Positions 6,379 through 50,268 of a stretch of 64,000 bases of DNA are shown in pieces. The translations under genes were made by a program, and so were the position numbers. The notes below the pieces were generated by a model. That model saw nothing but the letters and a program-made list of their open reading frames with translations, was not told the origin of the DNA and did no database searches. The DNA comes from Phycisphaerae bacterium (GTDB lineage: Bacteria > Planctomycetota > Phycisphaerae > Sedimentisphaerales > Anaerobacaceae), in the NCBI GenBank assembly GCA_017993835.1, contig JAGOLX010000003.1:62001-126000 (forward strand), read 5' to 3'. How positions within the stretch are numbered: position 1 is the stretch's first letter; the number at the start of each line of letters is the position of its first letter.

Positions 6379-6446
6379 AAGTCAACTCCATCAATGCCTT
6401 GCCTGGGGGATGGCCATGGTTGTTCGCCATGCAACGCCTCCGGCGA

Positions 6447-7760: not shown

Positions 7761-7774
7761 CGTTCTGTCTCCAC

Positions 7775-8713: not shown

Positions 8714-9149
8714 ATCAGGCTGACCTTAGAAGAAATGTGAGCGTGCTTCTCCGGATTGAAGCGTCGATGGTTCTGTCCATCTCACATTATCCGTTCGGAC
8801 CCCCTTTCGAGAACCCTGGCCCGAAGAGGCCGATTCTTCTTTTTCATAGCCATCCAGCAGACTGTGTTTCGACCATCTGCCTGGAGCCGATTAAAGTATA
8901 TGAAATGGAATCCCGCCGGACCAAAAGGGAGCGAGAGAACGGACCGTCCGGCACCGGGCGAACCGGAGGCCGCCGAACCGCGACCGATAACCTGGACCTG
9001 TCCATGAGAAGGCGGTTTCAGCGGAGACTTCGCGGGATACGGCGGGACTCGCCGCGGGCAGAACGTTTGGAATTCGCCGGCGCAGACCGACGGCATCCGA
9101 TCACACACACGAGAAGAACGCCGGGATCAACTCGATAGTCCGGCGAGCG
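8714..9149. other. Intergenic region upstream of the pilus operon
   Basis: 436 bases between gpsA and pilM, both on the minus strand, with gpsA transcribed away on the far side. Apart from the promoter-like site at 8895-8924 I see nothing I can name. An open plus-strand frame from 8737 to 9138 has low-complexity Arg/Thr content and no ribosome binding site, so I do not call it a gene. The roughly 180-base leader before pilM is long enough to hold regulation. Confidence 0.5.
8895..8924 (-). promoter_or_regulatory. Candidate sigma-70 promoter for the pilus operon
   Basis: On the minus strand TTGGTC (8919-8924) and TATACT (8895-8900) are separated by 18 bases. This would give a leader of about 175 bases before pilM. 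The -35 match is only moderate. Confidence 0.35.
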
Positions 9150-10196: not shown

Positions 10197-10250
10197 GATT
10201 ACCTCGATCCATCCGTGGGAACCCCGAACACAGCGTTCTGCATCGCGAGG

Positions 10251-10284
10251 CCCCTGTCTTTCGTGACGAACCCCGCGACAGGGG
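10251..10284. repeat. Palindromic GC-rich element upstream of gpsA
   Basis: CCCCTGTC (10251-10258) and GACAGGGG (10277-10284) are perfect 8-base inverted arms around an 18-base loop, followed on the plus strand by CGCGCTACC. There is no T-run on either strand, so it is more likely a dispersed intergenic repeat or mRNA-stabilising hairpin than an intrinsic terminator. Confidence 0.4.
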
Positions 10285-10388
10285 CGCGCTACCGGATTAA
10301 AACGACGAGAGGCCGGGAAGTCAACGGCCGCGTCTGAATCCGCGGACACAGGTGGGAGTCTGGGGATTGAACGAGGACCGGGCTGTAC

Positions 10389-11024
10389 CTACCGCATGAC
10401 CCAGCTTTGGCCCTTGTAGACCACCTCGACGGACGACCGCAGCGCGGGATCGCCACGCAGGGTGTAGTCCATTTCCAGGGTCTTGCGCAGATAGATCGGC
10501 ACCGGGTTGCCGTCCGCGTCCACCGCGACGGGGTGCGAGACGACAGCCGTTTCGTTGCTCAGGCCGCCGATAAACAGACGCAGACTCGTAGCTTGCGGAT
10601 CGAAGTCCTTCCAGATGACGGCGATATCCCGTGCGTTGTCTTCCCCTTCGAGGATACGATTGGGGACTCGCTGGAGGGATTCCAGCAGCGGATACTGGCT
10701 CGCGTGGCGCTGACGGATCATGTCGAACACGACCGGCGGCACCCCCTTGCCCGCCGGCAGGACCTGGAACGTGTCGGTCATCAGGTCGCACTTCGGATAG
10801 AAGTCGGCATCCATCCCGGTGCGGTTCGTCACCGTGATGATCGTATACCAGAATCGCTGCTCCCCGCCGGGACCCCACGGCAGCACAAGCTGCTGCAAAC
10901 GCTCGCAGCGGACGTCCAGCGTCCACTGGCCCGCCCGCTGGACCATCGCTGGCTCCGGCGCCGCTGTGCACAGACCCACCAGAAACGCTGTAAGTAACGC
11001 CCCACAAAGGAGATAGCTCTTCAT
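10389..11024 (-). CDS. Secreted protein of unknown function
   Basis: 211 residues with a Sec signal peptide (MKSYLLCGALLTAFLVGLCTA, about 1-21). The mature part is predicted beta-rich; it contains RFWYTIITVTNRTGMDADFY, which resembles the immunoglobulin-like modules that describe conserved 'Tis(V/I)TN' secreted domains, but I do not recognise a named family. GGAGAG lies ten bases before the ATG at 11024, which favours this start over the ATG at 11051. A good promoter lies 60 bases upstream. It is monocistronic. Confidence 0.75.
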   Translation of the reverse strand: MKSYLLCGALLTAFLVGLCTAAPEPAMVQRAGQWTLDVRCERLQQLVLPWGPGGEQRFWYTIITVTNRTGMDADFYPKCDLMTDTFQVLPAGKGVPPVVFDMIRQRHASQYPLLESLQRVPNRILEGEDNARDIAVIWKDFDPQATSLRLFIGGLSNETAVVSHPVAVDADGNPVPIYLRKTLEMDYTLRGDPALRSSVEVVYKGQSWVMR

Positions 11025-11086
11025 CGCGAATCCGCTCTCCAGAGAACACATTCCTATTCGGATGCACCAGATTCCACCAATTACCT

Positions 11087-11115
11087 ATTTTACACGAAGT
11101 CGGGCTCGAAGCCAA
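11087..11115 (-). promoter_or_regulatory. Sigma-70 promoter of the 10389-11024 gene
   Basis: TTGGCT (11110-11115) and TAAAAT (11087-11092) on the minus strand are spaced by 17 bases. The leader would be about 56 bases. Confidence 0.55.
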
Positions 11116-11207
11116 GAAGATTTTGGCTGCACCCAGGCCGGGCGTAGGGTAATCTTGCCTTTGTGGCCATGGCGATCCCGATCGGTTCTCTTTACGGAGG
11201 CTTTACG

Positions 11208-12437
11208 ATGACTGCGACGAATGGCGGGCGGACAGGGCAAATCACCCGGCGGGACTTCCTCTGCTCGACTGGGACCACGGTCGTGTCGTTTTCGATAGTC
11301 GGCGCCGGGGCGGTCGCCGGGACACGGGCGAACAGCCGGATCAAGGTCGGCGTTATCGGTCTGGGCGGTCGCGGGCAGATGATCGCCGGGATGGTCCAAA
11401 GGCATGGCGGGTACGAGATCGTCGCTATTGCGGACTACTTCAAGCAGGTCGCCGACGCCGCGGGCGACCCGTTGGGCATCGCGAAGGACAGTCGCTTCTC
11501 GGGCCTCTCGGGCTACAAGGCCGTGATCGCCGCCGGCATTGAGGCGGTCTTCCTGGAGACGCCGCCCTACTGCTTTCCCGAGCACGTCGAGGCCGCGGTC
11601 CAAGCGGGTCGGCACATCTACATCGCCAAGCCGCTGGGCTGCGACGTACCCGGTTGCCTGCGCATCCGCGACGCCGCAAGAAAGGCAACGTCGAACAAGC
11701 GGGTCTTCCTGTGCGACTTCCAGACCCGGACAGACCCGTTCTTCATCGAGGGCGTCCGTCGTGTGCGAGAAGGCGAGATCGGCCCGGTCGGCCTGCTCAG
11801 TTCCGAGTACAACGACGAGAGTTTCCGCGACCCGCCGAAGACCGCGACGGTCGAGAGCCGTCTGCAGCAGTTGATCTGGGTCAACGACGACGCCCTCGGC
11901 GGCAGCTACCTGGTCAACGCGGGCATCCACGCAGTCGATGTGGGCCTTTGGATCGCAGGCGAGATGCCGACCAGTGCGACCGGCGCATCGAGAATCGCAC
12001 GGGCCGATCCGCATGGCGACTCGCACGATGTCTTCTCGCTGACCTATGAATTCCCGAACGGCGCCATCCTGAACCATCGCGGCGAGCACCTCAAGAACCG
12101 CTGCGAATTCCGCAGCGATTGCACCGCCCAGGGCGCGGAGGGCTGGCTCGAGACCGGCTACACGTCCCGCGTCCGGATCCTCGCCAACTCCGGCGGCTGG
12201 CGCGGCGGCGACGTCGTCGATCTCTACCCGCGCGGCGCCGAGCGGAACATCGACGCGTTCCACAAGGCCGTCACGTCGGGCGACTGCGCCAATCCAACCA
12301 TCGAGCCCAGCGTCAACGCCACGCTGGCCACGATCCTGGGTCGGGAGGCCGCCCGCCGGCGGACGAAGTTGACCCTCGACGAAGTCCTCCGCGAGAACCG
12401 CCGCCTGGAACCCGACCTGACCGGACTGAAGACATAG
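11208..12437 (+). CDS. Tat-exported Gfo/Idh/MocA family oxidoreductase
   Basis: 409 residues. A twin-arginine signal is plain: ITRRDFLCSTGTTVVSFSIVG (RR at 14-15). Then comes an NAD(P)-binding Rossmann domain (IKVGVIGLGGRGQMIAGM) with the conserved lysine motif YIAKPLGCD, and the C-terminal alpha/beta domain with the catalytic histidine region NAGIHAVDVGLWIAGE. Planctomycetota carry many such periplasmic dehydrogenases, usually acting on sugars or cyclitols with a tightly bound cofactor; the substrate cannot be told here. GGAGG lies seven bases before the ATG at 11208, so this start is preferred over 11163. Confidence 0.93.
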   Translation: MTATNGGRTGQITRRDFLCSTGTTVVSFSIVGAGAVAGTRANSRIKVGVIGLGGRGQMIAGMVQRHGGYEIVAIADYFKQVADAAGDPLGIAKDSRFSGLSGYKAVIAAGIEAVFLETPPYCFPEHVEAAVQAGRHIYIAKPLGCDVPGCLRIRDAARKATSNKRVFLCDFQTRTDPFFIEGVRRVREGEIGPVGLLSSEYNDESFRDPPKTATVESRLQQLIWVNDDALGGSYLVNAGIHAVDVGLWIAGEMPTSATGASRIARADPHGDSHDVFSLTYEFPNGAILNHRGEHLKNRCEFRSDCTAQGAEGWLETGYTSRVRILANSGGWRGGDVVDLYPRGAERNIDAFHKAVTSGDCANPTIEPSVNATLATILGREAARRRTKLTLDEVLRENRRLEPDLTGLKT

Positions 12438-36132: not shown

Positions 36133-39100
36133 TCAGCGGATGCCCGGAGGCCTGGCGCTCCCGGGCGACGGTGCCAGGGCACGCCAGTTGAGCGGGTCGT
36201 CCCCATACAGTTCAGGGACCATCCGCGTCAGCGAGAGGCCTTGGCCGTCCGCCTGGACTGGCCAGAGATCCACGCCCGCAAGGAAATCCTCAGGGTGTGA
36301 GCCGTCGCTGTAGCGAATGCGATCCACCGGGATCCAGGTCCGAACCCCATCGCTGTCGGGTTCGCCCGGCCGGCTCAGTTGGATCGTTTCGCCGGCATTG
36401 CTCAGTTTGCCCATCCCCCAGGAGAGAATCTGCACGTCGGCCAAGGACGAGAACTGGCTCTTGAATATCTGCAGGTCCTTCACCAGCAACAGGTACTCCC
36501 CCGGCGCCAGCGTGACCGGCACATCGGCGGGGAACAGCAGGTCGATGGCCGGGTTTTCGGGGTCATCGGTGAACCGCCACGGCGCGCCCCGGCTCGGATC
36601 GTACAGCGCGACGTTGGCGTCGCTGACGTTGAGCAGCTCGACGAATTCGACATCGCTGGAACCGCTCGAATGGTACAGGATTTCGCTGATGACGACCGGG
36701 CCCACCGACGGATCGGCGTTCGCCTGGCCGGGGGTGGGCTCCGTCAGCGGGACGAGACTGGCGACGGTCGCATCGGTCGCATACCGTCCGAAGGTAACTC
36801 CCGGCTCAGACGCACCGAACCGGGCGCGATCCTCATAGCCGGTGATCCCCGAGGAATCGCCGGAGTGCAAGTGGACCGTTTCGCCGCCGGCGCTGAGCCC
36901 GAAGGACTTGCGACAGCCGGGATCGTTGGGATTGCCGAAGTGATCGTCCTCGTCGAGCAGGAGGAAGCCCTGCGCCGGCAAGACCGTCCCGTCGGCGATG
37001 CGATACCGGGTCGGTTCGTCCCCGTCGTCGCTGAGGAACCAGCCGCCGATATCCACAGGCTCATCTGTCGTATTGTGCAGCTCGATCCAGTCCGGACCGA
37101 CGCCGGAGGAGTTCGCCAGCAGTTCATTGATGACGATCGTGCCTGGAGCGGGCACGTCGGCGCTGTCGTCCCGGCCGGGCGAACCGCCCGGCGCCGCACT
37201 GAGCCGCCAAGCGCCCGCGTTGCCCCACAGGTCGGGGGCCATTCCCGCCGGGTCGATCATCGTCAGCGAGAATCCCCGACCGTCGGCCAGGTCGAACCAG
37301 TCGTCGCCGTACTTGAAGCTGTGGATGACCACGCCGAGGGCGTCGCACAGCTCGATCCGTTCGCCCGCGTCGGCAAGAGATCCCATGTATTGGCCTGCGA
37401 TGGGCAGGCCAGAGCCATAGCGGGCCTCGAACGCCTCGCGGTCCTTCACGACCAAGCAGAAGGCCCCAGGCGGCAACTCCACATCGGAGAAGGTGAAGTG
37501 GATGCCCTTGGTGAACTGCGCCAAGTTCAGGTTGACCGTCTGGCCGCCGACGTTCGTCAGCTCGACGTATTCGCAGTTGGGGTCGTCCGAATCACAGGGG
37601 TGGAACAGGATCTCGCTGATTCGGAGGCTCTCTCGCACCGGCCCGACCGCGAACACCGCGTCGGCCAGGGCGCTCCACGTCGCGCCGTTCTTGGCGCGGG
37701 CCTTGATCCGAGTGCTCTGGGTCAACGCCAGCGGCGTCGAATACTCATGCTCCCCGACGGTGTCTTCCACGATCGCGGCCTGACCGACAGCGAGGGTGGC
37801 TCCAATCAGGAAATCGGAGCTCCCGATTCCCGCGTTCAGGCCGTGGATGGCCAGGACGTTGTCGCCCTGGCGGAGCTTGCCGAGGTGTGCAGACACGTCG
37901 ATGGCCTCGAAAACCTCCGAGGCCGTGTCGTCGTGGCCCGCGCTCGCGATGGAGTTCCACGCAGGTTCCCCCTCGAAGTTGCGCCGCGCTACTTCCGCGC
38001 CGTTCAGATAGGCGACGAATCCGTCGTCGTACTGCATCCTCAGGGTCAGGGTCTGGAAATCGCTCGAACTGCCGCTGAACTGGAAAGGAATGCGGATGTA
38101 GCAGGAGCCGTTGATGTTGTACATCAGGTTGCCGACGTCCAGGCTGATAGAGTCCTCGTAGCCGGAGCCCTGCTCGTAGCCGACGCCGCCGGGAGCGCCC
38201 GAACACAGCAGCCAATGGGAGTCCTTCGCACGCAAGGATTGCCAATTCCCCTCGCTCGCGTCGATCGGGATCAGGACCCGCTTGGGCGCATCGGCAGCCA
38301 CCAGGGTGGTCGAGAGGGACGTCTGCGAATACGTCGAGATCGAGGGGACCGGGTCGTTTCCATCGAGCGTGTAGTAGACAGGCAACCCAGCGACCGGTGA
38401 CACGATCTCGACCGACTCGCCGGCGTCGAGGTACGCGCCATACTTCGACACGCCGCCGACCGCGAAGCTCGGACCCGCGAACGTGTACACGCCCTCGCTG
38501 GCGCACATACTCAGGAAGACGCCATGACGGCTGGGCGCCCAGGTGTCGACGATGGCTGTGCTCAGGCTGGGGATGACCCCGTCGAGCTCTTCCCGCATCT
38601 GGGAGAACCGCCAGGCGACATTGTCCTGGGTCAACGCGCCGCCGTTGAAGAAGTGCTTGTAGAGGCGATCGGCGAACAAGAGTCGAAAACTCGCGTTTGC
38701 CCTGAGCGCCCGGTAGAGGGATGCGTTGGCGTTGCTCTGACCGTTCAATTCGCCAAATCGGCTGTCGTACACCTGGCCGGACTCGAAGGTGCCTTCCGCG
38801 TCCCACACGAAGAACTTCCACTTGCCCGTCGCGGACCGCTCGCAGGCGGCCGACCAGTTGTTTTGCGGCCAGTCCCAGTCGTTGGGCCACAAACGCGCGA
38901 TCAGGTAGTCGATGAAGCAGACGACGTCGAGCTTCTCGCACATCCCGGCGTAGGCCGCCGGATCGGCCAGGTTGTTGTTCTGGGCATAGCGGAGCATGGC
39001 GTTCCAGGATTCCGTATCGCCGTCCCGGATGCCGTTCATGGTCATCACGTCCCAGGATTCGTCGCTGTCGAACCACTCCTGACACGATTCCTCCGTCACC

Positions 39101-40611
39101 TGCTCGGTGGGGTTGTAGTAGCCCTTGTGCTCGCCGTTGATGAACAGGCTGGCGAAGGCGCCCATACAGGCGACCTGGCCCATGTCCCGGTGGAGCCGAC
39201 GGACCAGCTCGTCCCTGATGAAGGGGTTGAAGGGATCGTTGTGGCCCGCACGGAGGATAACCGTTGCGAACTGCTCGGCCTCGGAGAGCGGAAACAGCGG
39301 GTGTTCCAGACGTCGCTGGCCGTACTCGCTCCGGAAGTACAGTCGCAGACCGATCTTGCCTCGGTAGTCGCCCCAGTAGCCGCTCTGGCGGATGTACCGA
39401 GGGCGCGTGTAGTCGCTGCCGTGGACCCGCAGGCCGCAATCGACCTGGAAGGCGTCGTCCTCGCCTGCCACGAACCACTCGACCGAGACGGGACGTTCCA
39501 ACTCCCGGTTCAGCATGTTGTTGTAAGTGCCCGCGCCGCTGGAGGTCCACACGCCGTCGGAGGTGCGTGTGCCGCCAACGATGGCCATCACGCCGTCAGG
39601 CTCGTAGAAGGTCTTCTTCGAATCGCCGACGAGGGAGACAATCGGCAGCGACTTCACCGAATCGCGGATGTCAAAGAGATACGTCTGGGTGTAGATCTTC
39701 GTGGACTTCCAGCCGGCCTTGCGGGCCATTGCCCGCACGCAGGTCGTACTGACGACACGGATCGGCCCGGTGTAAACGATTCCCGGCGGGACCCGGTAGG
39801 ACGTGGATTCATCGTCCGGTGCGGCGCCACCCAGCGTGTAGACGATTTCGGCGTCCGGAGTGGTTGTGGTGATCGTCAGATAGAAGCCTGGCTCGCGGCC
39901 GTCTCGCGTCACAGCGGCGGAGTAGAACCCCCGCTCCTGGCTAAACCTCAGCGGCGCGACCTGGCCGAGGTAGCCTTCGTTGTTGGCGGCGCCGGGCGTC
40001 GGCTCGCCGAAGAACCGCAGGGTGTCCCCGCCGTCGGGATAGCGGCCATAGGAGACGTCCGGCGTCTGCTCGTCGAAGACCAGGCTGTCGATCCGCGTCA
40101 CGCCGTCGGCGTCGAACAGATGGATCTTGTCGCCGCTGGCGTCCAGGCGAAACCCGGCGTGGAACCCCGAGGCCGGCAGGTCGCTCGTCCGCGTGCCCGA
40201 CTGCTCGACCGGCACGAAGTCACCCGTGTCCCCGTCCATCCAGATGACCAGGTATCGGCCGGCGCCCAGGGGGGTGGACTTTCCATAGGCCGCCGGGATT
40301 TGCCACTTGGTCGGCTCGTCCTTGTCGTCGGTCAGGTACATCCCCGACAGGTTGACGGAGACGTCGCCGGCATTGTACAGCTCGATCCAGTCGTCGTACT
40401 CGCCCTGCGGATCCGCATACGATTCCACATTGGAGGCCATCACCTCGTTGATCACCACCTGGGCCCGCGCCAGACCCGACCCCAGGAGCACGATACCAGC
40501 GATGAGGGACAGAATGGAGTGTTTCTCGCGATGTTCTCGGACTAGGCTGCGACTTGCCACTCGATGCTCCACATACGCACATTCACCACGTTCTCCTCCC
40601 CTCTTCTCCAT
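36133..40611 (-). CDS. Large secreted protein with lamin-tail domains and CotH kinase domain
   Basis: 1492 residues. A signal segment (HSILSLIAGIVLLGSGLARA, about 33-52) precedes LTD 1 (VVINEVMASNVESYADPQ). Then come a chitobiase-like module, a CotH kinase-like domain (about 330-700: LPIVSLVGDSKKTFYEPDG, CGLRVHGSDYTRP, FASLFINGEHKGYYNPTEQV, NDWDWPQNNW, FFVWDAEGTFES), another sugar-hydrolase-like module (PVYYTLDGNDPVP), and three more LTDs (LRISEILFHPCD, IVINELLANSSGVGPDWIEL, VVISEILYHSSGSSDVEF). In spore coats CotH phosphorylates proteins; in planctomycetes such proteins are exported and their substrate is unknown. The ATG at 40611 lacks a clear ribosome binding site and lies directly after a TATACT at 40619-40624, so the true start may be a little downstream. 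Confidence 0.85.
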   Translation of the reverse strand: MEKRGGERGECAYVEHRVASRSLVREHREKHSILSLIAGIVLLGSGLARAQVVINEVMASNVESYADPQGEYDDWIELYNAGDVSVNLSGMYLTDDKDEPTKWQIPAAYGKSTPLGAGRYLVIWMDGDTGDFVPVEQSGTRTSDLPASGFHAGFRLDASGDKIHLFDADGVTRIDSLVFDEQTPDVSYGRYPDGGDTLRFFGEPTPGAANNEGYLGQVAPLRFSQERGFYSAAVTRDGREPGFYLTITTTTPDAEIVYTLGGAAPDDESTSYRVPPGIVYTGPIRVVSTTCVRAMARKAGWKSTKIYTQTYLFDIRDSVKSLPIVSLVGDSKKTFYEPDGVMAIVGGTRTSDGVWTSSGAGTYNNMLNRELERPVSVEWFVAGEDDAFQVDCGLRVHGSDYTRPRYIRQSGYWGDYRGKIGLRLYFRSEYGQRRLEHPLFPLSEAEQFATVILRAGHNDPFNPFIRDELVRRLHRDMGQVACMGAFASLFINGEHKGYYNPTEQVTEESCQEWFDSDESWDVMTMNGIRDGDTESWNAMLRYAQNNNLADPAAYAGMCEKLDVVCFIDYLIARLWPNDWDWPQNNWSAACERSATGKWKFFVWDAEGTFESGQVYDSRFGELNGQSNANASLYRALRANASFRLLFADRLYKHFFNGGALTQDNVAWRFSQMREELDGVIPSLSTAIVDTWAPSRHGVFLSMCASEGVYTFAGPSFAVGGVSKYGAYLDAGESVEIVSPVAGLPVYYTLDGNDPVPSISTYSQTSLSTTLVAADAPKRVLIPIDASEGNWQSLRAKDSHWLLCSGAPGGVGYEQGSGYEDSISLDVGNLMYNINGSCYIRIPFQFSGSSSDFQTLTLRMQYDDGFVAYLNGAEVARRNFEGEPAWNSIASAGHDDTASEVFEAIDVSAHLGKLRQGDNVLAIHGLNAGIGSSDFLIGATLAVGQAAIVEDTVGEHEYSTPLALTQSTRIKARAKNGATWSALADAVFAVGPVRESLRISEILFHPCDSDDPNCEYVELTNVGGQTVNLNLAQFTKGIHFTFSDVELPPGAFCLVVKDREAFEARYGSGLPIAGQYMGSLADAGERIELCDALGVVIHSFKYGDDWFDLADGRGFSLTMIDPAGMAPDLWGNAGAWRLSAAPGGSPGRDDSADVPAPGTIVINELLANSSGVGPDWIELHNTTDEPVDIGGWFLSDDGDEPTRYRIADGTVLPAQGFLLLDEDDHFGNPNDPGCRKSFGLSAGGETVHLHSGDSSGITGYEDRARFGASEPGVTFGRYATDATVASLVPLTEPTPGQANADPSVGPVVISEILYHSSGSSDVEFVELLNVSDANVALYDPSRGAPWRFTDDPENPAIDLLFPADVPVTLAPGEYLLLVKDLQIFKSQFSSLADVQILSWGMGKLSNAGETIQLSRPGEPDSDGVRTWIPVDRIRYSDGSHPEDFLAGVDLWPVQADGQGLSLTRMVPELYGDDPLNWRALAPSPGSARPPGIR

Positions 40612-40685
40612 CTTCCGTAGTATAGCAAATCCCGGCCGGCGAATCGAACGAATTCCCCTCGCGGATCGTCGCAACGGCCTTTGGG

Positions 40686-40720
40686 GATTTACTATTTGCG
40701 ACTTGCGATTTACGATTGGG
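40686..40720. repeat. AT-rich quasi-repeat (copy 2)
   Basis: Words tttactatttgcgac, ttgcgatttacgatt in close succession. The same vocabulary recurs about 120 bases on and at the other copies in this window. Confidence 0.45.
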
Positions 40721-40836
40721 TCGCGTGCCGCGGTTGTCATCCTGAACGCAGCACAACAGAGTGAAGAACATGGCCGACGACCGAGAGAAACCTCGGGGCT
40801 GGTGCCCAGGTCCTTCGCCCACGGCCCAAGATGACC

Positions 40837-42218: not shown

Positions 42219-42803
42219 TCAATCACCGCGAGTCGGTCTCGATCCAGGACTCAGGGTCGCTGGCTCGCTCGCGAGGAATTGCCGGGGTTGCAGAAGGATA
42301 AGCCCGGCGTAGGCTGCCGCACTGACAGCCAATATCACGATTGCCCGAATCAGGGTCAGGTAGCTGATCTTGCCTGCCGCCGAACTGCTGAAGCAGCCGC
42401 AACTGATGTCCAGATGCCGCCACAACGCCCAGGCCAGCACGAACGTGAACATCGCACCCATGCCCATACTGGCCAGCAATGCCCCACCCACGAACACCCC
42501 GCCGACCAAGCAGACGCCCGCAAACAACTCCACCCACGGCAGCACCATCGCCACCAACACGCCCATCTGCGGCCCGACAAGCTCATACCCGTAGACGCTG
42601 CCGAGGAACGCATACGGCTGGCGAATCTTCGGTACGCTGCTCGCGATGAACATGAACCCAAGCCCCAGCCGGACCACGAGCACAAACGCAGACAGCGTCG
42701 CGTCCCTGTTCGGCAAGAGTCGCCTCATCGTAGCATGGGCATCTTGCCCATGAATCACGGGCGGGACGCCCGTGCTACTTTTCAGCAATCGCCTCAGCCT
42801 CAT
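42219..42803 (-). CDS. MauE/DoxX-like membrane protein with in-frame palindromic repeat
   Basis: 194 residues with four membrane helices (about 39-58, 78-96, 104-124, 144-163). The motif DISCGCFSS after helix 3 matches the CxC motif of MauE-type proteins, which are thought to support disulphide or quinone redox steps in the envelope. The start at 42803 has AGGAGG six bases upstream and overlaps the stop of the previous gene (ATGA), so the two are translationally coupled. Residues 9-25 (SSTGVPPVIHGQDAHAT) are encoded by the palindromic repeat at 42730-42778; the protein without it would start MRLRRLLK and continue MRRLLPNRD, which look like two versions of the same start. Confidence 0.8.
   Translation of the reverse strand: MRLRRLLKSSTGVPPVIHGQDAHATMRRLLPNRDATLSAFVLVVRLGLGFMFIASSVPKIRQPYAFLGSVYGYELVGPQMGVLVAMVLPWVELFAGVCLVGGVFVGGALLASMGMGAMFTFVLAWALWRHLDISCGCFSSSAAGKISYLTLIRAIVILAVSAAAYAGLILLQPRQFLASEPATLSPGSRPTRGD
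42730..42778. repeat. Double-hairpin palindromic repeat (copy B), in frame inside a gene
   Basis: Arms GTAGCATGGGC (42730-42740) and GCCCGTGCTAC (42768-42778) enclose hairpins CATGGGC-ATCTT-GCCCATG and CACGGGC-GGGAC-GCCCGTG. It is the same family as copy A at 18762-18817, with changed loops and a shorter spacer (AAT instead of AATCCGGGAT). Confidence 0.8.
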
Positions 42804-45010
42804 CGCGAGCCTCCTGCAGCCTCTTTCTTGTCTGTCCAGTCACTCCAGCCACCCCGGTAGATCGAGATATCCGAGTAGCCTTCCTCGATCAATCGCAACG
42901 AGACCTTCTCAGCGTATTTGCAGCCCGCGCTCTGGCAATACGTAATGATCGGCCGGCCCTGAGGAATCCTCGCCAACGTCTCTTTCCACAGAGTATCATC
43001 TGCGTTGACCGGCAGGCTGATCGCACCGTCGAGATGGCCATTCTTGTAGTCCGCTGCCAGCCTGGCGTCGATGAAGACAGTACCAGTCCCAAGCAGTCTG
43101 TTGACCGTTTCTTCTCGCACCTTCGGAATGAAGGTGCCTGCGTAGCCTTTCTGGAGTGCTTGGGTTGCCACCGCGTTGGCCAGCAATCCTCCCTCGCTGA
43201 AGAGGTGATAAGCACCGGCACACAGCACTGCAGCCAGTGCCAGCGCCGACACCTGTCCCACTGTCAGGCCCAGAGCCCAGCGACGCGTGATCGGCGGCGA
43301 CAGCGACAGCCAGACCCGCCTGCCGATGTGCCCTGCCAGAATCACCAGCAAGCCAATCATGCTGTACCACAGGAGATGCTGCCGGTCGGCAGCAAGAATA
43401 AGATCGGTCTCAATCGGAGCTCTGGAGATGAACAACGCGCTGGCGTCCCAGCGTGTCGCGAGGTCCGCGAACGATACCAATCGCGGTGCCTGGGGTGGAT
43501 TGAACAGCTTCGCCTTTCCCTGCTCCACGCCCAGGAACAACTCGTAATGGTCGTACTTCGGGGATTCCGGATATAACCTGACATGGAGAATCGCCGGATA
43601 GGGACAGTGGCTCAATCCAGATGCGCTCAATCTGCCCACAGGCTCTGCCCTGAAACCCAAATCGAGGGCCGCCTGACGCAGTTCCAAGAGGGAACTGCCC
43701 TCGTGACTCCCCAAATACTGTGGCTTCACCAAATCCTGGAAGTCCACTTGTTGACCCAGCATCACCATCATCGAATAGACGCAATAGAGACCGCAGTGGG
43801 GATATGGTGCCCTGCGGTTCTTCGTTTTCACATCCCCCTGCACTTGCGGCGTAAGAGAATCCGCCTCCCCCTCCGCAAGGCTTGTCCCATCTCGTGGTTG
43901 GGTGGACAACGTCAGATCGACTCTCGGACCGGCAGCGGATGGGCTGGGGCGAGAGGCATCCGTCAAATCCGCAGGAGACACTCCCTTCTGTTCTGCCAGG
44001 ATGGTCGCTACCGTGTCGTCAATCCGTCTGACGGCATCATGGTCAAACATGGGGCGAAACACGCCCTGCTGCCAGATACACTTGATCTGGTCGTGGGGTG
44101 CAACCCAACCCCATGTCCCGTCAACAACATCCCCGTGGGCGAATGACCCGAGGGATTCGTGATCGGGGTCCAGAGATAACTCTGTCACCTCGACACGGGA
44201 CTTCGACGTATAACTGCCCCCTTGGGGGAGGTCAAAGAACTGGTCCACCGTGCCCTCGATTGCCACCCACATCCCCTTGAACTCACGGAATTGCGATATC
44301 TCGATCATGGAGTTCCAGTTCCCACGCACGGGGTTGTCAAGATACCAGTGTTTCTGTTCCTGGCTCGCGTGAATCTGAGCCTTGGCGACGTTGAATCCAT
44401 GTTCTGGGTCGATCCAGAGCGTATAGTCGCCGTACTTTGTCTTTGCGTCGATCACGAAGCAATCCACGCCATTGACCGGTTCGGCATGCTCACGCAATGA
44501 GACGTGCCGTGCGTCACGTAGGATGGAATCGATCCGTGCATACGCATTCGGATAGCAGCCCAACAAGGGGGCCGCCACATGCAAACAGCGCAGAGATTTC
44601 ACGTCCCGCGGATTGGGGTGCGGATCGACAAAAATGACCCCTTTTGCATTCTTGCTCTTTGTCCGGTAGTTGCTGAAGGCTTGCCCATCCCAGACGATGC
44701 TGTGATAGCTCGCTTTCTCCTCGGGAAGGCACATCCTTGTCCCTACGGCACCTCCCCATTGTCGCCGGGACCAAGCCACGCGTTCTCCATCGGAATACAC
44801 ATCCGATGCCCGATAGCGCAAGTCAACCCTGTTCGGATCGTCAAACAGGTGATAGTTCTGCGTACTCTTGCAGGAGAGTCGCCACGAGGTGGCTTGGTCC
44901 GCGTTGGCTGTGTAGCGATCCAACAGTCCGCCGGCGTCCCGCGGGCTCGCGACACCAGAAATCTGGATTAGAGCAGCCGCAAAGAAGAGGCTCGACGTGG
45001 GCACAAACAT
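42800..45010 (-). CDS. Fusion of LolA-like, C39-peptidase-like and rhodanese domains with two membrane helices
   Basis: 736 residues. Signal peptide about 1-22. Residues 25-300 resemble outer-membrane-lipoprotein-sorting (LolA/LolB-like) domains and carry several Cys. Residues 400-530 resemble a C39 peptidase: PHCGLYCVYSMMVMLGQQVD (catalytic Cys406), YDHYELFLGV (His488) and KLFNPPQ, where Asn504 stands at the place of the usual Asp. Two membrane helices follow (547-565, 585-603). Residues 640-725 are a rhodanese: VFIDARLAADYKNGHLDGA with active-site loop CQSAGC (Cys692). By topology all three soluble domains would be outside the cytoplasm. AAGGAGA precedes the ATG at 45010. It lies after the six-cysteine protein gene and before the MauE-like gene. 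Confidence 0.8.
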   Translation of the reverse strand: MFVPTSSLFFAAALIQISGVASPRDAGGLLDRYTANADQATSWRLSCKSTQNYHLFDDPNRVDLRYRASDVYSDGERVAWSRRQWGGAVGTRMCLPEEKASYHSIVWDGQAFSNYRTKSKNAKGVIFVDPHPNPRDVKSLRCLHVAAPLLGCYPNAYARIDSILRDARHVSLREHAEPVNGVDCFVIDAKTKYGDYTLWIDPEHGFNVAKAQIHASQEQKHWYLDNPVRGNWNSMIEISQFREFKGMWVAIEGTVDQFFDLPQGGSYTSKSRVEVTELSLDPDHESLGSFAHGDVVDGTWGWVAPHDQIKCIWQQGVFRPMFDHDAVRRIDDTVATILAEQKGVSPADLTDASRPSPSAAGPRVDLTLSTQPRDGTSLAEGEADSLTPQVQGDVKTKNRRAPYPHCGLYCVYSMMVMLGQQVDFQDLVKPQYLGSHEGSSLLELRQAALDLGFRAEPVGRLSASGLSHCPYPAILHVRLYPESPKYDHYELFLGVEQGKAKLFNPPQAPRLVSFADLATRWDASALFISRAPIETDLILAADRQHLLWYSMIGLLVILAGHIGRRVWLSLSPPITRRWALGLTVGQVSALALAAVLCAGAYHLFSEGGLLANAVATQALQKGYAGTFIPKVREETVNRLLGTGTVFIDARLAADYKNGHLDGAISLPVNADDTLWKETLARIPQGRPIITYCQSAGCKYAEKVSLRLIEEGYSDISIYRGGWSDWTDKKEAAGGSR

Positions 45011-45092
45011 CTTATTCTCCTTTCAGGCGCCCATGCTCCCGCCCCACGAGGGTCCTTCTGCGGAGTCGCTGCTCCCCAGGAACCCGTATTCG

Positions 45093-45124
45093 AGTGCGGA
45101 GCGCCGCGCGTGGCGCTCCGCACT
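45093..45124. repeat. Perfect 13-base palindrome between genes
   Basis: AGTGCGGAGCGCC (45093-45105) and GGCGCTCCGCACT (45112-45124) are perfect arms around GCGCGT. There is no T-run on the minus strand, so it is probably a repeat or mRNA-stability hairpin between the Cys-rich gene and the fusion gene, setting their relative expression. Confidence 0.6.
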
Positions 45125-45173
45125 TGGTTGTGCCATCGGCACGGCGGTTGGTCAACAGCACCGGACACCACTC

Positions 45174-45542
45174 TCAGTAAGTCTCACAACTCGCATCGTA
45201 CAAGGTTGTGCAGCGCGGATGATCTCCGCTGCATGCAGACAGACCATCGGCAAAAATCGTCAACCCCGTGATTTCGGTGTCAGACACCGCCACGGTCACA
45301 TTCCCACCCCAGCAGTTGTAACGCTCATACTCGCTGCATGGCAGTGACGTTGTGCCTAGACAATAGTCGTAGTTGGGGAGCGTTGTGGCAACACGATAAG
45401 TGTGGTCTACCCAGGCGTAGTAGAACGTGCCGCCCAGAACCGGGCCATTGACTCCCACAAACGGCGTAGACCCCACCCAGACAGCGGTCATGCCCACCAC
45501 GATTCCAACCAGCAGTATAAGCTGTGACAATCTCTTCTTCAT
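45174..45542 (-). CDS. Small secreted six-cysteine protein
   Basis: 122 residues. A signal peptide (MKKRLSQLILLVGIVVGMTA, then VWVG) leads to a short mature protein with six cysteines (61, 69, 77, 104, 111, 119), enough for three disulphides. It has VNGPVLGGTFYYAW, in which a Gly-Gly (37-38) follows the hydrophobic part; this may or may not be a C39-type processing site. I do not recognise a family. GGAGG lies seven bases before the ATG at 45542. It is the gene just before the C39-like/rhodanese fusion on the same strand, which suggests it may be a substrate or partner. The longer frame to 45587 has no support. Confidence 0.75.
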   Translation of the reverse strand: MKKRLSQLILLVGIVVGMTAVWVGSTPFVGVNGPVLGGTFYYAWVDHTYRVATTLPNYDYCLGTTSLPCSEYERYNCWGGNVTVAVSDTEITGLTIFADGLSACSGDHPRCTTLYDASCETY

Positions 45543-45854: not shown

Positions 45855-46805
45855 CTAATAGTCCTTGAATCCTCTCATCCACTCAGGCCAGTCCTCCGGC
45901 TGGACGCCGCCGGCCTTCGTCCAGGGACCCGCCCGGTCAAAGTCTTCGCACCAGTTTAGCGTCCAGAGCTCTTTGATCCCCACCTTGCGAACGGACCAGT
46001 CCATGAACAGGATGTTGATCCCGCCCGCGTGGCGGTTCATCGCGTAGCAAGGAAGCCCCACGCTGGAAGGCCAAGAACTCCAAGGCACGTCCTCGCAGGA
46101 TGGGGGTTCATCGATGTGGCACGGCAGAGCCACTGCAGCTCTGGACTCGGAGTACACCGGCACCTCCGACGCTCCCTTCATCAGACAAGAACGCCAGTAG
46201 GTCGCGCCTTCCTTGACAAAACCGGGCGAGGGGTAGAACCAGATGTTCTGCGCATAGCTGGAGCCTGAGACACCGCTGATCCCCGCATCCACTCGGAAAC
46301 TCCAGGCCAACCGAGTCATCCCATTCCGGCAGGCCAAGCCAGTGGACGCCGGATCAAGCGGTTGGGGTTTTGTGGCCGGACAGAGCAAGAGCCTCCGCCC
46401 CTCGCGCATTGTCGCGTCAGAGGCGCCCAAGTCATAGCCCCCGCCATCGCTGGCGAAGAACTCCCTGGGCAGGACCGGCGGCACAAAGGCATACCATCGC
46501 GTTCTGTCCACCACCGACGGCATCTTCCCCTCGTTCTCCGTCGTGTACATGGAGTAGTACAGACCCCACTGGCGGAGATTCGCCTGGCAGCCGGCAGCGT
46601 GCGCCTGGGCGCGGACCCGCGATATGACCGGCATCAACACCGCCAGGAGCAGGGCAATGATCGAAATGACCACCAGCAACTCGATCAGGGTGAAACCACG
46701 AGGATTTGCGATTGACGATTTCCGATGGATGATTCGTGTATGCGACCGCTCCGCCCCGGCCGAAGTCGGCTTCCTGCTTCTCGCTCGTTTCTCCCTGCCA
46801 GCCAT
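45855..46805 (-). CDS. Pilin-like secreted protein with long prepilin leader
   Basis: 316 residues. A long basic leader ends in NPRG, then [20 protein letters not shown]. The conserved CQANLRQWGLYYSMYTTENE and C-terminal NILFMDWSVRKVG and GGVQPEDWPEWMRGFKDY belong to the planctomycete prepilin-leader families. The leader's IIHRKSSIANP is encoded by AT-rich quasi-repeat copy 4. GGGAG lies seven bases before the ATG at 46805, so this start is preferred over 46880. It is on the same strand as the Cys-rich gene, 312 bases away, so cotranscription is possible but not shown. A remnant of a sister gene lies upstream at 47055. Confidence 0.82.
   Translation of the reverse strand: MAGREKRARSRKPTSAGAERSHTRIIHRKSSIANPRGFTLIELLVVISIIALLLAVLMPVISRVRAQAHAAGCQANLRQWGLYYSMYTTENEGKMPSVVDRTRWYAFVPPVLPREFFASDGGGYDLGASDATMREGRRLLLCPATKPQPLDPASTGLACRNGMTRLAWSFRVDAGISGVSGSSYAQNIWFYPSPGFVKEGATYWRSCLMKGASEVPVYSESRAAVALPCHIDEPPSCEDVPWSSWPSSVGLPCYAMNRHAGGINILFMDWSVRKVGIKELWTLNWCEDFDRAGPWTKAGGVQPEDWPEWMRGFKDY
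46701..46738. repeat. AT-rich quasi-repeat (copy 4), inside a leader-peptide coding region
   Basis: Words ggatttgcgattgacgat and ttccgatggatgattcg lie in frame within the leader of the pilin-like gene. Confidence 0.4.
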
Positions 46806-47054
46806 CTGTCCACTCCCATCCCAGAGACCCCGTATCTCACCGCCAAGATCCCCCGCCGGGCGATCTTTCGCCCAATCCATCCGCCCACGTCCTGCTCTGC
46901 CACTTTCTAAGGCGCTTGTCAGCAGGCGGATGTTGATGACATTTCCAGAAAAATATCAAAAATTCCTCTCGGCCGCACCCTCGCCTTTCGCACTCCTGCC
47001 CCTCTGACTCCGGGTCGCCAGGCCAAAGCCCCCGCGGCGCTTGAGCGGGATTGC

Positions 47055-47237: not shown

Positions 47238-47386
47238 AAGGGTTTGTTTCTGCAAGCCTTATGCTGCTTCGTGTGGTGGTGTTCCGCTGCGAATCGTCGG
47301 TGGCGGATGGGAATTCTGAAGGCTCGACCACGAATCGTGATCGAGTGACAAGGGCAGTTTTTTGCATACAGGGAGTCCGCAGGGGT

Positions 47387-48523
47387 ATGGGCACGGAACA
47401 TCCACTCGACGCGCAGGATGCAAAGGGCAAGAAAGAACCACAACTGAACAAGTACTTCAAGGCGGCGATCAAAACCCTGGCCAACGACATTCACCTGAAG
47501 GTGGGCCAGCCGCCGAAGCTGCGACTGCACGGCGAGCTCAAGAGCACGACGGGAGACATCCTCACCGCCGAGCGCATGGAGGAGCTGGTCTTCGAGATCA
47601 TGAGCCCGGCCCAGAAAGAGCAGTTCCTCAAGAATGGGACGCTGGACTTCGCCCATGAGGTCGGTCGCGAGCACCGATTCCGCCTGAACGTGTTTCGCCA
47701 GCGGGGCATGATCAGCCTCGTGGGTCGTCGGGTCAGCGCGCACGTGCCGTCGTTCGAGAGCCTGCACCTTCCGCCAATCCTGGAGAAGATCGCGGAATCC
47801 CGCCAGGGACTGGTGCTGGTCGTCGGCGCCACGGGCTGCGGCAAGACGACGACGATCGCGGCCATGCTCGACTACATCACGCGGACGCGGTCGTGCCACC
47901 TCGTGACGGTGGAGGACCCGATCGAGTATCTGTTCAACGACAATAAGGCCATCGTGTCCCAGCGAGAGATCGGGATCGACGTGCCGAGCTTCGAGGAGGC
48001 CCTGACCTACCTGATGCGCGAGGACCCGGACGTGGTCTTCGTCGGCGAGATGCGAGATTCCCGGACGGTGACGGCGGGCATGCGCGCCGCCGAGACGGGA
48101 CACATGGTAATGGGAACGATGCACTCGTCCAACGCCTCGCAGGCGGTGCACCGGCTCCTGGACCTGTTTCCCACGAACGAACGCGAGCTGGTCCGCCAGG
48201 CGCTGGCGACCTGCATCCGGGCGATTGTCAGCCAGGTCCTGTTGCCGTCGATCCGCGAAGAGGTGGACCGCATCCCGGCGGTGGAGGTCCTGCTCGGGAC
48301 GCCGCCCGTCCGCAAGCTGATCAGCGAAGGACGCGAGGGCGACCTGCCCTCCGTGATCCGGGCCTCCCAGCGAGAGGGCATGCAGGACCTGACCGACAAC
48401 CTGTGCCGATTGGTGCAGGAAGGCTGGGTCGATCCGAAAGACGCCTACGGATTCGCCCCCAACGCGGAGGAACTCAAGATGGCCCTCAAGGGCATCCGAA
48501 CCACCGCTGAGGGCATCCTGTGA
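47387..48523 (+). CDS. PilT/PilU-like ATPase of a second motor operon
   Basis: 378 residues. After a charged N-terminus: AAIKTLANDIHLKVGQPPKL (PilT-type N domain), Walker A GATGCGKTT near residue 147, Asp box TVEDPIEYLF, Walker B VVFVGEMRD and His box GHMVMGTMHSSN. All catalytic elements are present. It differs from the pilT at 2637 in sequence and context, and is closest in style to PilT/PilU retraction ATPases. The ATG at 47387 has AGGGG only one base upstream, so the start is uncertain; a longer frame begins at 47261 but is not pilT-like. It starts an operon with a membrane-anchored GspE-like protein and a CvpA-like protein. Confidence 0.9.
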   Translation: MGTEHPLDAQDAKGKKEPQLNKYFKAAIKTLANDIHLKVGQPPKLRLHGELKSTTGDILTAERMEELVFEIMSPAQKEQFLKNGTLDFAHEVGREHRFRLNVFRQRGMISLVGRRVSAHVPSFESLHLPPILEKIAESRQGLVLVVGATGCGKTTTIAAMLDYITRTRSCHLVTVEDPIEYLFNDNKAIVSQREIGIDVPSFEEALTYLMREDPDVVFVGEMRDSRTVTAGMRAAETGHMVMGTMHSSNASQAVHRLLDLFPTNERELVRQALATCIRAIVSQVLLPSIREEVDRIPAVEVLLGTPPVRKLISEGREGDLPSVIRASQREGMQDLTDNLCRLVQEGWVDPKDAYGFAPNAEELKMALKGIRTTAEGIL

Positions 48524-48618: not shown

Positions 48619-50268
48619 ATGACAGATTCGCTGCTGATGGCCGTCGAGTACGGCGGCTACATCTCAATCGTGAAATTGGCCGTGTTCCTGGCCTGCTACT
48701 TGGCCTGGCTCGTGCTCCTCGGCTGGACGCACAAGGACGCCAAGGCGGTGAACACGAACGTTCCCCTCTGGGTCGGCATCCTCCTCGGCGCCGGCGCCCT
48801 GGGCATCCTGCTCTGGTGGCTGATCCCCCTGTTCCCCGTCGGACTGCTGGCCTGCGCCATCGCCGTCGGGGGCGCAGCGCTGGCCTACGTCAAGCACCGC
48901 AACGGCCGCGTGCTCGACTTCGACAGGGTCCTGACCATCGACCACATCAAGAGCCTGTTCGCCAAGTCGGAGAAGCTCGATGCGATGGCGAACTTCATGT
49001 TCATCACGACCAACAACAATGAAGTCCCGCCGCCGGAGCCCCGCACACCCACGTTCTTCGGCTACCGCACCGCCTACGACGTGCTCACGGACGCGATGTG
49101 GCGACGGGCCAGCACGATCAGCTTCACGCCCAAGGGCGAGAGCTACGAGGTGGTCTACAACATCGACGGCGCAGCAACGAGACAGCCGCCGATCCAGCGG
49201 GAACAGATGGAGTACTTGATCCACTTCGTCAAAGAGGTGTCCGGCTTGGACGCCAAGGAGAAGCGGAAACCGCAGAAAGGCAAGTTCCGCACCCGCCAGG
49301 TGAAAGTCAACACCGACTGGGAAGTGCAGACCGCGGGCTCGACGGCCGGCGAGCAGATCCGGCTCAAGCATGTCACTAAGGAAAGCGCCATGCGGCTCAC
49401 CGACCTCGGACTGGCGCCGGACCAGCTCGAACAGTTGGGTCGCTTCAAGGAAAGAAAGCAAGGCCTGTTCCTCATCACCGGGCCCGCCAAGAGCGGCGTC
49501 ACCACGACGATGTATGCCCTCGTGCGCGATCACGACGCGTTCCTGAACAACATCAACACGCTCGAGAAGCAGCCGACCGGCCAGCTTCTCAACGTTACGC
49601 AGACGGTCTTTTCCCTCACGGACACGGGAACCTCGACGTATGCGAAGAAGCTCCAGTCGATCGCCCGCATGGGCGCGGACATCATCGGCGTCGGCGAGTG
49701 CGAGGATGCCGACACCGCCAAGACCGCCTGTGCGGCCGCCCGGGAGAGAATCGTCTACGTCGTCATGGAGTCCGGCAGCGTGCTCCAGGCCCTCGCCAAA
49801 TGGCTCAAGATGGTCGAAGACCGCAAGCTCGTGACCGAGACGCTCATCGGGATCAGCAACCAGCGCATGTTCCGCAAGCTGTGCGACACCTGCAAACAGG
49901 GGTACGCCCCGAACAAGGAGCTGCTCAAGAAGTTCAACCTGCCGGCGGAGAAGGCCAAGGTCCTGTACCGCCCGGGCAAGGAAGTCTTCGACAAACGAGG
50001 CAAGCCGTCCACGTGTGACATGTGCCAGGGAACCGGGTTCATCGGGCGGACCGGTGTGTTCGAGATGATCATCCTCGACGACGAGTTGAGGAAGGCCGTC
50101 AGGACCGTCAAGCAACTGCCCGAACTCGGGGTCCAGTTCCGCAAGGCCAAGATGCTCTATATGCAGGAACAGGCCCTCCGCAAGGTCATCGCCGGCACGA
50201 CGGCGATCAACGAGATGCTTCGCGTGCTGGCGCCCCCGAAGAAAGAGGGCGCCCCGGCCGCCCAGTGA
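48619..50268 (+). CDS. Membrane-anchored GspE-like pseudo-ATPase
   Basis: 549 residues. Three N-terminal membrane helices (about 15-33, 49-67, 69-87) are unusual for GspE. The soluble part follows the GspE plan: N2D-like (AYDVLTDAMWRRASTISFTP), P-loop region LFLITGPAKSGVTTTMYAL, Walker B-like ADIIGVGECED, tetracysteine CDTCKQGYAP and CDMCQGTGFIGRTGVFEMII. The P-loop reads GPAKSGVT where GPTGSGKT is expected: the catalytic Lys is Val, with a Lys two positions before the second Gly. The His box is replaced by RERIVYVVMESGS. So ATP hydrolysis is unlikely; a structural or regulatory role beside the PilT-like ATPase is inferred. It begins 95 bases after that gene and precedes a CvpA-like gene by 66. 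Confidence 0.85.
   Translation: MTDSLLMAVEYGGYISIVKLAVFLACYLAWLVLLGWTHKDAKAVNTNVPLWVGILLGAGALGILLWWLIPLFPVGLLACAIAVGGAALAYVKHRNGRVLDFDRVLTIDHIKSLFAKSEKLDAMANFMFITTNNNEVPPPEPRTPTFFGYRTAYDVLTDAMWRRASTISFTPKGESYEVVYNIDGAATRQPPIQREQMEYLIHFVKEVSGLDAKEKRKPQKGKFRTRQVKVNTDWEVQTAGSTAGEQIRLKHVTKESAMRLTDLGLAPDQLEQLGRFKERKQGLFLITGPAKSGVTTTMYALVRDHDAFLNNINTLEKQPTGQLLNVTQTVFSLTDTGTSTYAKKLQSIARMGADIIGVGECEDADTAKTACAAARERIVYVVMESGSVLQALAKWLKMVEDRKLVTETLIGISNQRMFRKLCDTCKQGYAPNKELLKKFNLPAEKAKVLYRPGKEVFDKRGKPSTCDMCQGTGFIGRTGVFEMIILDDELRKAVRTVKQLPELGVQFRKAKMLYMQEQALRKVIAGTTAINEMLRVLAPPKKEGAPAAQ

Follow-up and report, generated by a model that had tools for sequence, protein, structure and literature searches.

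Possible maturation of disulphide-rich secreted proteins by a recurrent C39 peptidase-rhodanese gene cassette in Planctomycetota

The window analysed here is a stretch of 64,000 nucleotides from a Phycisphaerae bacterium (contig JAGOLX010000003.1). Three genes stand in a row on its minus strand, each where an earlier sequence-only reading had placed it: a Cys-rich secreted precursor (45174..45542), a large fusion protein (42800..45010), and a MauE-family membrane protein (42219..42803). The precursor has 122 residues and consists of a hydrophobic leader (residues 1-38) ending in V-L-G-G and a six-Cys core (residues 39-122); the leader is encoded at 45429..45542 and runs to a predicted double-glycine cleavage site after Gly38, the cleavage itself being inferred. 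The order of hydrophobic helix, Gly37-Gly38, and exactly six Cys (61, 69, 77, 104, 111, and 119) agrees with that reading, which proved right in nearly all its details. The same holds for the 736-residue length of the fusion protein, its Cys406, His488, Asn504, and Cys692, its two membrane helices, and the CGC motif and overlapping start of the MauE-like protein.

The fusion protein comprises a signal peptide, a LolA-like domain, a C39 peptidase, two transmembrane helices, and a rhodanese. The C39 domain (residues 401-531, 43418..43810), which contains Cys406, His488, and Asn504, matches Pfam Peptidase_C39 (PF03412) at 39.6 bits against a cut-off of 22. Its predicted structure comes closest to the ComA peptidase (3k8u, Z 17.1, 127 residues aligned at rmsd 2.3) and the LahT150-leader complex (6mpz, Z 16.8), so that residues 400-530 passed the test set for them in advance, namely that they form a C39 fold. 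Across 12 divergent homologues neither the Cys nor the His varies, and the Asp/Asn is nearly always kept. Canonical C39 peptidases have an oxyanion Gln before the Cys; in these homologues no Gln is conserved there, as judged from alignments only and not from coordinates, and given this absence the catalysis may differ; the role of this residue (Gln21) has been questioned in work on LahT (PMC6363468). The rhodanese domain (residues 634-731, 42818..43111) matches Pfam Rhodanese (PF00581) at 58.8 bits against a cut-off of 22.2 and bears the motif C692-Q-S-x-x-C697, of which both Cys residues, together with a DAR motif, are invariant in the 12 homologues. A first alignment was too divergent for the pattern search.

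The N-terminal domain (residues 26-306, 44093..44935) has no Pfam LolA match up to an E-value of 1 and is thus LolA-like by fold only. In the predicted structure it matches LolA3 (9tp6) with Z 15.0 over 206 aligned residues, a DUF1329 protein (4z48) with Z 15.6, and several LolA/LolB proteins with Z of about 9-12, which bears out the LolA-like assignment proposed from the letters alone. Outside the genus of the window this part is often a separate adjacent gene, and the fusion corresponds to two genes in most relatives. The two transmembrane helices (residues ~535-604, 43199..43408), assigned from hydropathy, charge, and the helices of the predicted model, are joined by an Arg-rich turn and should place the C39 and rhodanese domains on the same, periplasmic side of the membrane. 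Since the LolA-like and C39 domains lie in one chain without a transmembrane segment between them, both should be periplasmic. The signal peptide and domain order are those of a periplasmic C39 peptidase with a Sec signal; this topology is argued from sequence, without localisation data. The C39 domain is not fused to ABC membrane or nucleotide-binding domains, its partners being the LolA-like and rhodanese domains, and the plasmid records searched for C39-rhodanese proteins gave no match.

The MauE-family protein matches Pfam MauE (PF07291) at 78.2 bits against a cut-off of 27, with CGC at residues 135-137, and its ATG overlaps the fusion TGA by 4 bases (42800-42803). The first ~25 codons of its frame encode a repeat-like peptide (TGVPPVIHGQDAHAT). 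As this peptide also occurs in a second species of the genus (L034) but is missing from a third (L033), translation may truly begin at the ATG further in (MRRLLPNRD).

Upstream of the cassette lies a gene for a type IV pseudopilin-like protein (45855..46880, minus strand), a probable component, in which the prepilin methylation motif was recognised (Pfam N_methyl, 31.3 bits against a cut-off of 21.2) and which has no DUF1559 match in Pfam. A pseudopilin is also found upstream of the cassette in L034 and L072. In other loci, from Planctomycetia, a DUF1559 pseudopilin follows MauE directly, and in five genomes it is fused in frame to MauE; these fusions score 112-138 bits for DUF1559 in all five cases and exceed the N_methyl cut-off in four. 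The DUF1559/type IV pseudopilin is probably a further component of the system. No pseudopilin figured in the sequence-only reading. By motif, the genome of the window encodes 85 pseudopilins, a number that counts, with the missing DUF1559 match, against the maturation model set out below. Two type II secretion/type IV pilus ATPases are neighbours on the plus strand, a divergent PilT-like gene (47261..48523, Pfam T2SSE 134 bits) and a PilB/GspE-like gene (48619..50268, T2SSE 167 bits), and both are possible partners not shown to belong.

The arrangement is more than chance because it recurs across the phylum. Throughout Planctomycetota, MauE stands beside 38 of 39 C39-rhodanese genes (none was found at L040) and a LolA-like protein beside about 34 of the 39. 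A small secreted Cys-rich protein accompanies 32 of the 35 genes at which it could be sought, with none found at L064, L116, and L126. The recurrence of Cys-rich and MauE-like neighbours, which had been named beforehand as the support to look for, is thus seen, the test set in advance to refute the reading did not refute it, and the cassette neighbours occurred in none of the 18 control windows. Under a fixed filter, 7 of 14 newly examined loci carried the cassette against 0 of the 18 controls (p = 0.001), and 12 of the same 14 did so when judged by eye. That a rhodanese alone brings MauE with it was rejected, as neither MauE nor a LolA-like protein lies beside any of ten stand-alone rhodaneses. 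Glycosyltransferases (a GT2-MauE fusion in L061 and a GT2 in L072) and a TPR membrane protein in L040, which were raised together as components, were dropped for want of loci. No ABC gene, regulator, or transporter recurred among the neighbours examined, and neither methylamine dehydrogenase subunits nor MauD were present among the neighbours scanned. Without a dedicated search, no FapF outer-membrane pore or amyloid-repeat subunit of the Fap kind was noticed near the loci examined.

The Cys-rich proteins vary in sequence and, apart from the Cys themselves, keep no common spacing. Searches of Pfam and NCBIfam matched the family of the window to no known family; it is present in 6 of 61 related genomes, and in 5 of those 6 at cassette positions. 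A G[GAS] site precedes the Cys-rich core in all 33 precursors (32 found by script, and a GS in L042), with V, I, L, or M at position -4 in 23 of them. In 51 of 55 and in 10 of 10 pairs, conservation is stronger in the leader than in the core. The precursors thereby show the marks of a double-glycine leader, that is GG, GA, or GS, a hydrophobic -4 residue, and a leader better conserved than the core; in LahT, Val-4 of the leader sits in a hydrophobic groove (PMC6363468). Tandem precursors, in two to three copies each, are found in two genomes. The AlphaFold model of the Cys-rich protein is weak (mean pLDDT 68, core mostly 50-75), and a fold search on it was accordingly judged unjustified. The idea that this protein is the substrate had rested on gene order, to which the motif, the leader and core conservation, and the tandem copies now add evidence. 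The broader proposal of an envelope locus for peptide maturation or thiol redox is likewise supported, with the chemistry of rhodanese and MauE remaining inference.

Resting on the observed gene system, folds, double-glycine motif, and link to a pseudopilin, the reading considered reasonably probable is that planctomycetes across the phylum have a system for making small secreted proteins rich in disulphides, through export, double-glycine cleavage, thiol handling, LolA-like carriage, and pseudopilin delivery. By an inferred route, Sec would export the precursor, whose hydrophobic leader would keep it tethered. The membrane-anchored periplasmic C39 domain would read the leader motif [SD]-[VIL]-x-G-[GAS] and cut after it to free the Cys-rich core, a cleavage for which there is no experiment. 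The rhodanese (persulphide or dithiol, CQSxxC) and MauE (CGC) would exchange thiol equivalents and so form or proofread the disulphides of the core, the direction of this chemistry being inferred as well. MauE has been speculated to form disulphides (PMC7794033), and PspE, a rhodanese, is able to stand in partly for DsbA/DsbB (PMC5403849). The LolA-like domain may hold or ferry the hydrophobic precursor or product, a presumed cargo. The DUF1559-type pseudopilin would link the product to a pilus-like type II/IV machine that carries it to the surface or out of the cell. A further proposal, advanced only tentatively, is an undescribed planctomycete secretion system with periplasmic leader cutting, in which a rhodanese-MauE relay replaces DsbA-DsbB and the cores pass to DUF1559 pseudopilins, which would account for part of the large expansion of pseudopilins in this phylum.

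The thiol chemistry could also run towards sulphur delivery instead of oxidation, which is considered unlikely. The periplasmic rhodanese would modify the Cys-rich core or the pseudopilin with a persulphide or with sulphur in another form, with MauE giving reducing equivalents and C39 still trimming the precursor. Rhodaneses classically carry a persulphide on the loop Cys, which is invariant here, and the cassettes showed no DsbA-like thioredoxin. In about a quarter of the cores the Cys count is odd, so that intramolecular pairing cannot take in every Cys and one is left free for modification; however, 24 of the 33 cores have an even number. The second invariant Cys, five residues on in CQSxxC, rather favours a dithiol/disulphide cycle, and MauE is tied to disulphides in the only system known for it.

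It is quite improbable that the C39 domain has a binding or chaperoning role in place of a proteolytic one, in a system that would serve pseudopilin or pilus assembly as a redox chaperone. On this view the Cys-rich protein would be a structural subunit, anchored by a leader that it never loses. RTX transporters, whose C39-like domain has such a non-protease role, are a precedent, and both the absence of a conserved oxyanion Gln from the alignment and the fusion of DUF1559 pseudopilin to MauE speak for it. However, neither catalytic residue, Cys or His, varies in the phylum-wide alignment, unlike in C39-like domains that lost the Cys, and this view would leave the G[GAS] site with its V at -4 unexplained. 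An envelope stress or metal response, with Cys-rich proteins that sense redox or bind metal and are then reset by the enzymes, would suit small proteins of variable sequence and the general thiol theme, but it is very improbable, as neither a conserved Cys spacing nor a recurring regulator or transporter accompanies them and a double-glycine leader would not be expected. A chance neighbourhood of an unrelated protease-rhodanese gene and common envelope genes, conceivable where pseudopilins and LolA-like genes are abundant, is effectively refuted by the recurrence of MauE, LolA-like, and Cys-rich neighbours across families and classes, by the empty control windows, and by the LolA-C39 and MauE-pseudopilin fusions.

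If the preferred reading of a maturation system for disulphide-rich proteins is true, double-glycine peptide maturation would exist in a periplasmic form that has thiol enzymes of its own, in a phylum about whose secretome little is understood. The reading also points to a large unstudied pool of disulphide-rich secreted proteins, which could be antimicrobial, adhesive, or signalling. The sequence-only reading could not name the system, and the combination indeed matches none that could be named; literature searches on C39 with rhodanese and MauE, on C39 in planctomycetes, and on NVEALA found nothing relevant.

Among known systems, FapD of the Pseudomonas Fap functional-amyloid secretion system is a Sec-exported periplasmic C39 protein whose active Cys is required and whose target was still unclear in that source (PMC5557850); the cassette, if the preferred reading is true, would offer candidate substrates for a periplasmic C39 peptidase. 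Both systems place such a protein in an operon with secreted substrates, and the candidate Fap targets have GG/GA sites. In contrast, no rhodanese is described for FapD, and Fap has the outer-membrane pore FapF and Asn/Gln-rich amyloid repeats, whereas the proposed planctomycete substrate is Cys-rich with a leader/GG/core layout and the cassette adds MauE, LolA-like, and pseudopilin proteins. The AMS/PCAT peptidases (LahT, PCAT1, ComA) share the C39 fold (Z 16-17), the Cys/His(/Asn-Asp) site, and the double glycine with hydrophobic -4, but the planctomycete C39 lacks the ABC transporter domain and shows no conserved oxyanion Gln in the alignments, and its proposed substrate has a Sec-type hydrophobic leader, so that cleavage would be periplasmic. 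Maturation of methylamine dehydrogenase (MauE/MauD) likewise sets a MauE-family protein beside a many-Cys protein; however, the cassette has no methylamine dehydrogenase genes, and in it rhodanese and C39 take the place of MauD. Candidate RiPP clusters of Streptomyces (decRiPPter) pair a MauE homologue with precursors of at least eight Cys (PMC7794033); they are predictions in another phylum, and the available part of that source mentions no C39-rhodanese, LolA-like, or pseudopilin protein. Finally, the DUF1559 (SBP_bac_10) pseudopilins of Planctomycetes, whose function is unknown, belong to the same family that is fused to or beside MauE in the cassette, which, if the preferred reading is true, would give some of them a specific partner and a testable role.

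The window corresponds to positions 62001-126000 of contig C104, in an assembly totalling 6.37 Mb, and its minus-strand cassette encodes a Cys-rich precursor (45174-45542), a 736-residue LolA-C39-rhodanese fusion protein (42800-45010) and a MauE-family membrane protein (42219-42803). Close homologues are contained in metagenome assemblies labelled Phycisphaerae or Sedimentisphaerales. The residues and coordinates that the sequence-only reading had assigned to these genes, including C39 Cys406, His488 and Asn504, all proved correct when the sequence was re-checked. Pfam recognizes C39 and rhodanese domains within the fusion and assigns the small membrane protein to MauE, with no match for the LolA part or for the Cys-rich protein of the window. 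The predicted structure of the fusion (mean pLDDT 79.6) comprises a LolA fold at residues 26-306 (LolA3 9tp6, Z 15.0; several LolA and LolB, Z about 9-12), a C39 domain at 401-531 and a rhodanese domain at about 634-731. The modelled C39 domain matches the ComA peptidase 3k8u (Z 17.1, rmsd 2.3 over 127) and also the LahT150-leader complex 6mpz (Z 16.8).

In the fusion, a signal peptide is followed by the LolA-like domain and then by C39 without an intervening transmembrane segment, and the helix pair at 535-604 is linked by an Arg-rich turn that should lie on the cytosolic side. Because of these three features, the LolA-like, C39 and rhodanese domains are all expected to be periplasmic, an inference from sequence and predicted structure. 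In split-gene relatives, the C39-rhodanese protein mostly has its own hydrophobic N-terminus. At locus L121, a LolA-like protein is joined to C39-rhodanese, and both an anchor at the C-terminal end and a second signal-like helix are kept, which gives a topology matching that of the window fusion.

Among 99 relatives, two layouts are found. Members of the window's genus have the LolA-C39-rhodanese fusion, and most other genera carry LolA-like and C39-rhodanese as neighbouring genes. The fused layout is also present in another genus (L072 and L074). Profile searches detected C39-rhodanese in 13 of 89 genomes at family level and, with the first profile, in 7 of 392 at phylum level; a broader profile applied to the class of genome G477 matched 44 of 297, about 20 of these being stand-alone rhodaneses or partial matches. 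Neighbourhoods were inspected for 39 distinct C39-rhodanese genes. MauE adjoins 38 of them, L040 being the sole exception; it lies on the opposite strand in L074 and is partly masked in L039. L072, an 11 kb contig, holds two full cassettes with different Cys-rich proteins and a common single MauE. A LolA-like gene or domain is recognized by profile at about 34 of the 39, two of them weakly, and L064, L121 and L126 have an ORF resembling the LolA-like layout without a profile match. A small secreted Cys-rich protein occurs at 32 of the 35 loci with enough contig to look, including a fragment in L033, where the LolA-C39-rhodanese gene (7126-9408) is broken across several frames through either assembly errors or gene decay. 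Two loci, L059 and L060, have their Cys-rich genes downstream of MauE in tandem (two and three copies, respectively).

For new loci, a filter was fixed after the hypothesis (80-160 aa, an N-terminal hydrophobic stretch and at least six Cys in the remainder). After two duplicates and one contig edge were dropped, it found a Cys-rich candidate within the cassette at 7 of 14 new loci and in none of 18 control windows, each 13 kb long (Fisher p = 0.001); inspection by eye found one at 12 of the 14. The MauE and LolA-like profiles had no matches across the same 18 windows, and 10 stand-alone rhodaneses matching the C39-rhodanese profile had neither MauE nor LolA-like neighbours. Searched against 61 related genomes, the Cys-rich profile had five strong matches, each of them at a cassette position, and one further match that was weak. 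Since all five belonged to the training set of the profile, this result shows absence elsewhere and not discovery. It is almost certain that the cassette genes constitute one system.

A G[GAS] pair separates the hydrophobic segment from the Cys-rich core in 33 of 33 proteins (32 by script, L042 by eye), and is only suggestive of a cleavage site because composition alone predicts 22; strict GG was observed in 22 against 10.8 expected. Among the 33 precursors, 23 have V, I, L or M at position -4 and 18 have S or D at -5. The site was chosen without using -4, whose preference is the stronger sign of a leader site, with only rough significance as the precursors are interrelated. Ordinary signal peptides are usually not better conserved than the mature part, and leader/core peptides show the reverse. 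Here, the leader is the more similar part in 51 of 55 orthologue pairs, and likewise in each of the 10 paralogue pairs from L059/L060. The Cys-rich protein is very probably the substrate of the system, and it is likely that C39 cleaves it in the periplasm, following the double-Gly site. The L042 cassette is flanked by two more secreted proteins (5825-6703 and 9627-10622) with 35 and 58 Cys, one with C-terminal TPR repeats, which are possibly large substrates.

Across 12 divergent homologues, the Cys and His of C39 do not vary. In the rhodanese, the DAR motif, the loop Cys and another Cys five residues further are likewise invariant. The oxyanion Gln usual in C39 is not conserved. Each enzyme has a precedent. 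FapD is a C39 peptidase exported by Sec to the periplasm; amyloid secretion requires its Cys, and the target of FapD was still unclear (PMC5557850). The rhodanese PspE, together with DsbC, can partly substitute for DsbA/DsbB (PMC5403849). MauE has been speculated to form disulphides, and in Streptomyces candidates it accompanies precursors containing at least eight Cys (PMC7794033). That disulphides are formed or corrected by the rhodanese and MauE is about as likely as not, and sulphur transfer is the main rival. Other C39-like proteins without a rhodanese fusion are encoded in L046 (5994-7688) and L045 (8572-10401).

The first ~25 codons of the window MauE frame (42727-42803) carry a repeat-like peptide, TGVPPVIHGQDAHAT. 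As this insertion is present in L034 and absent from L033, the gene start seems to have been invaded by a repeat within the genus; no further close copy was found in the window genome at up to 3 mismatches. A 1535-aa secreted protein nearby (36133-40740, minus strand), with lamin-tail, CotH and chitobiase-C-terminal domains, probably has no link to the cassette.

In five genomes (L117, L122, L123, L126 and L127), the MauE frame continues into a complete DUF1559 pseudopilin with a prepilin motif (MauE 54-69 bits, DUF1559 112-138 bits). A same-strand pseudopilin gene is downstream of MauE in L062, L064, L111, L112, L113, L114 and L119, four of them confirmed by Pfam. At new loci, a pseudopilin follows or is fused to MauE in 8 of 15, against about 0.01 expected per slot from control windows. 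It is upstream of the Cys-rich gene in L034, L072 and the window (45855-46880, minus strand), where the adjacency taken alone is weak evidence because the genome has 85 pseudopilin motifs. T2SS/T4P motor genes found close to the cassette in L035, in L039 and in the window are only suggestive, as these genomes have 16-18 ATPase matches each (18 in the window genome). Delivery of the product by the pseudopilin remains a tentative proposal, somewhat short of even likelihood.

By inference, a role of the Cys-rich proteins outside the cell in competition, adhesion or signalling would be consistent with their variable cores and tandem copies. In L061 (5530-6840), MauE is fused to a family 2 glycosyltransferase, and in L072 (5790-6548) such an enzyme stands between the two cassettes; glycosylation of the product is possible. 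A TPR membrane protein follows the L040 cassette (9873-11990), with a relative near that of L038. Away from C39, LolA-like domains occur as tandem genes beside apparent sigma factor genes in L043, L044 and L047, and the domain appears to represent a larger planctomycete family. None of the family models searched covers the Cys-rich proteins, and a literature search found no publication on the C39-rhodanese/MauE/Cys-rich combination. C39 removal of double-glycine leaders is already known in kind; what is new is the combination of a periplasmic site with rhodanese and MauE partners, a LolA-like part and a pseudopilin.
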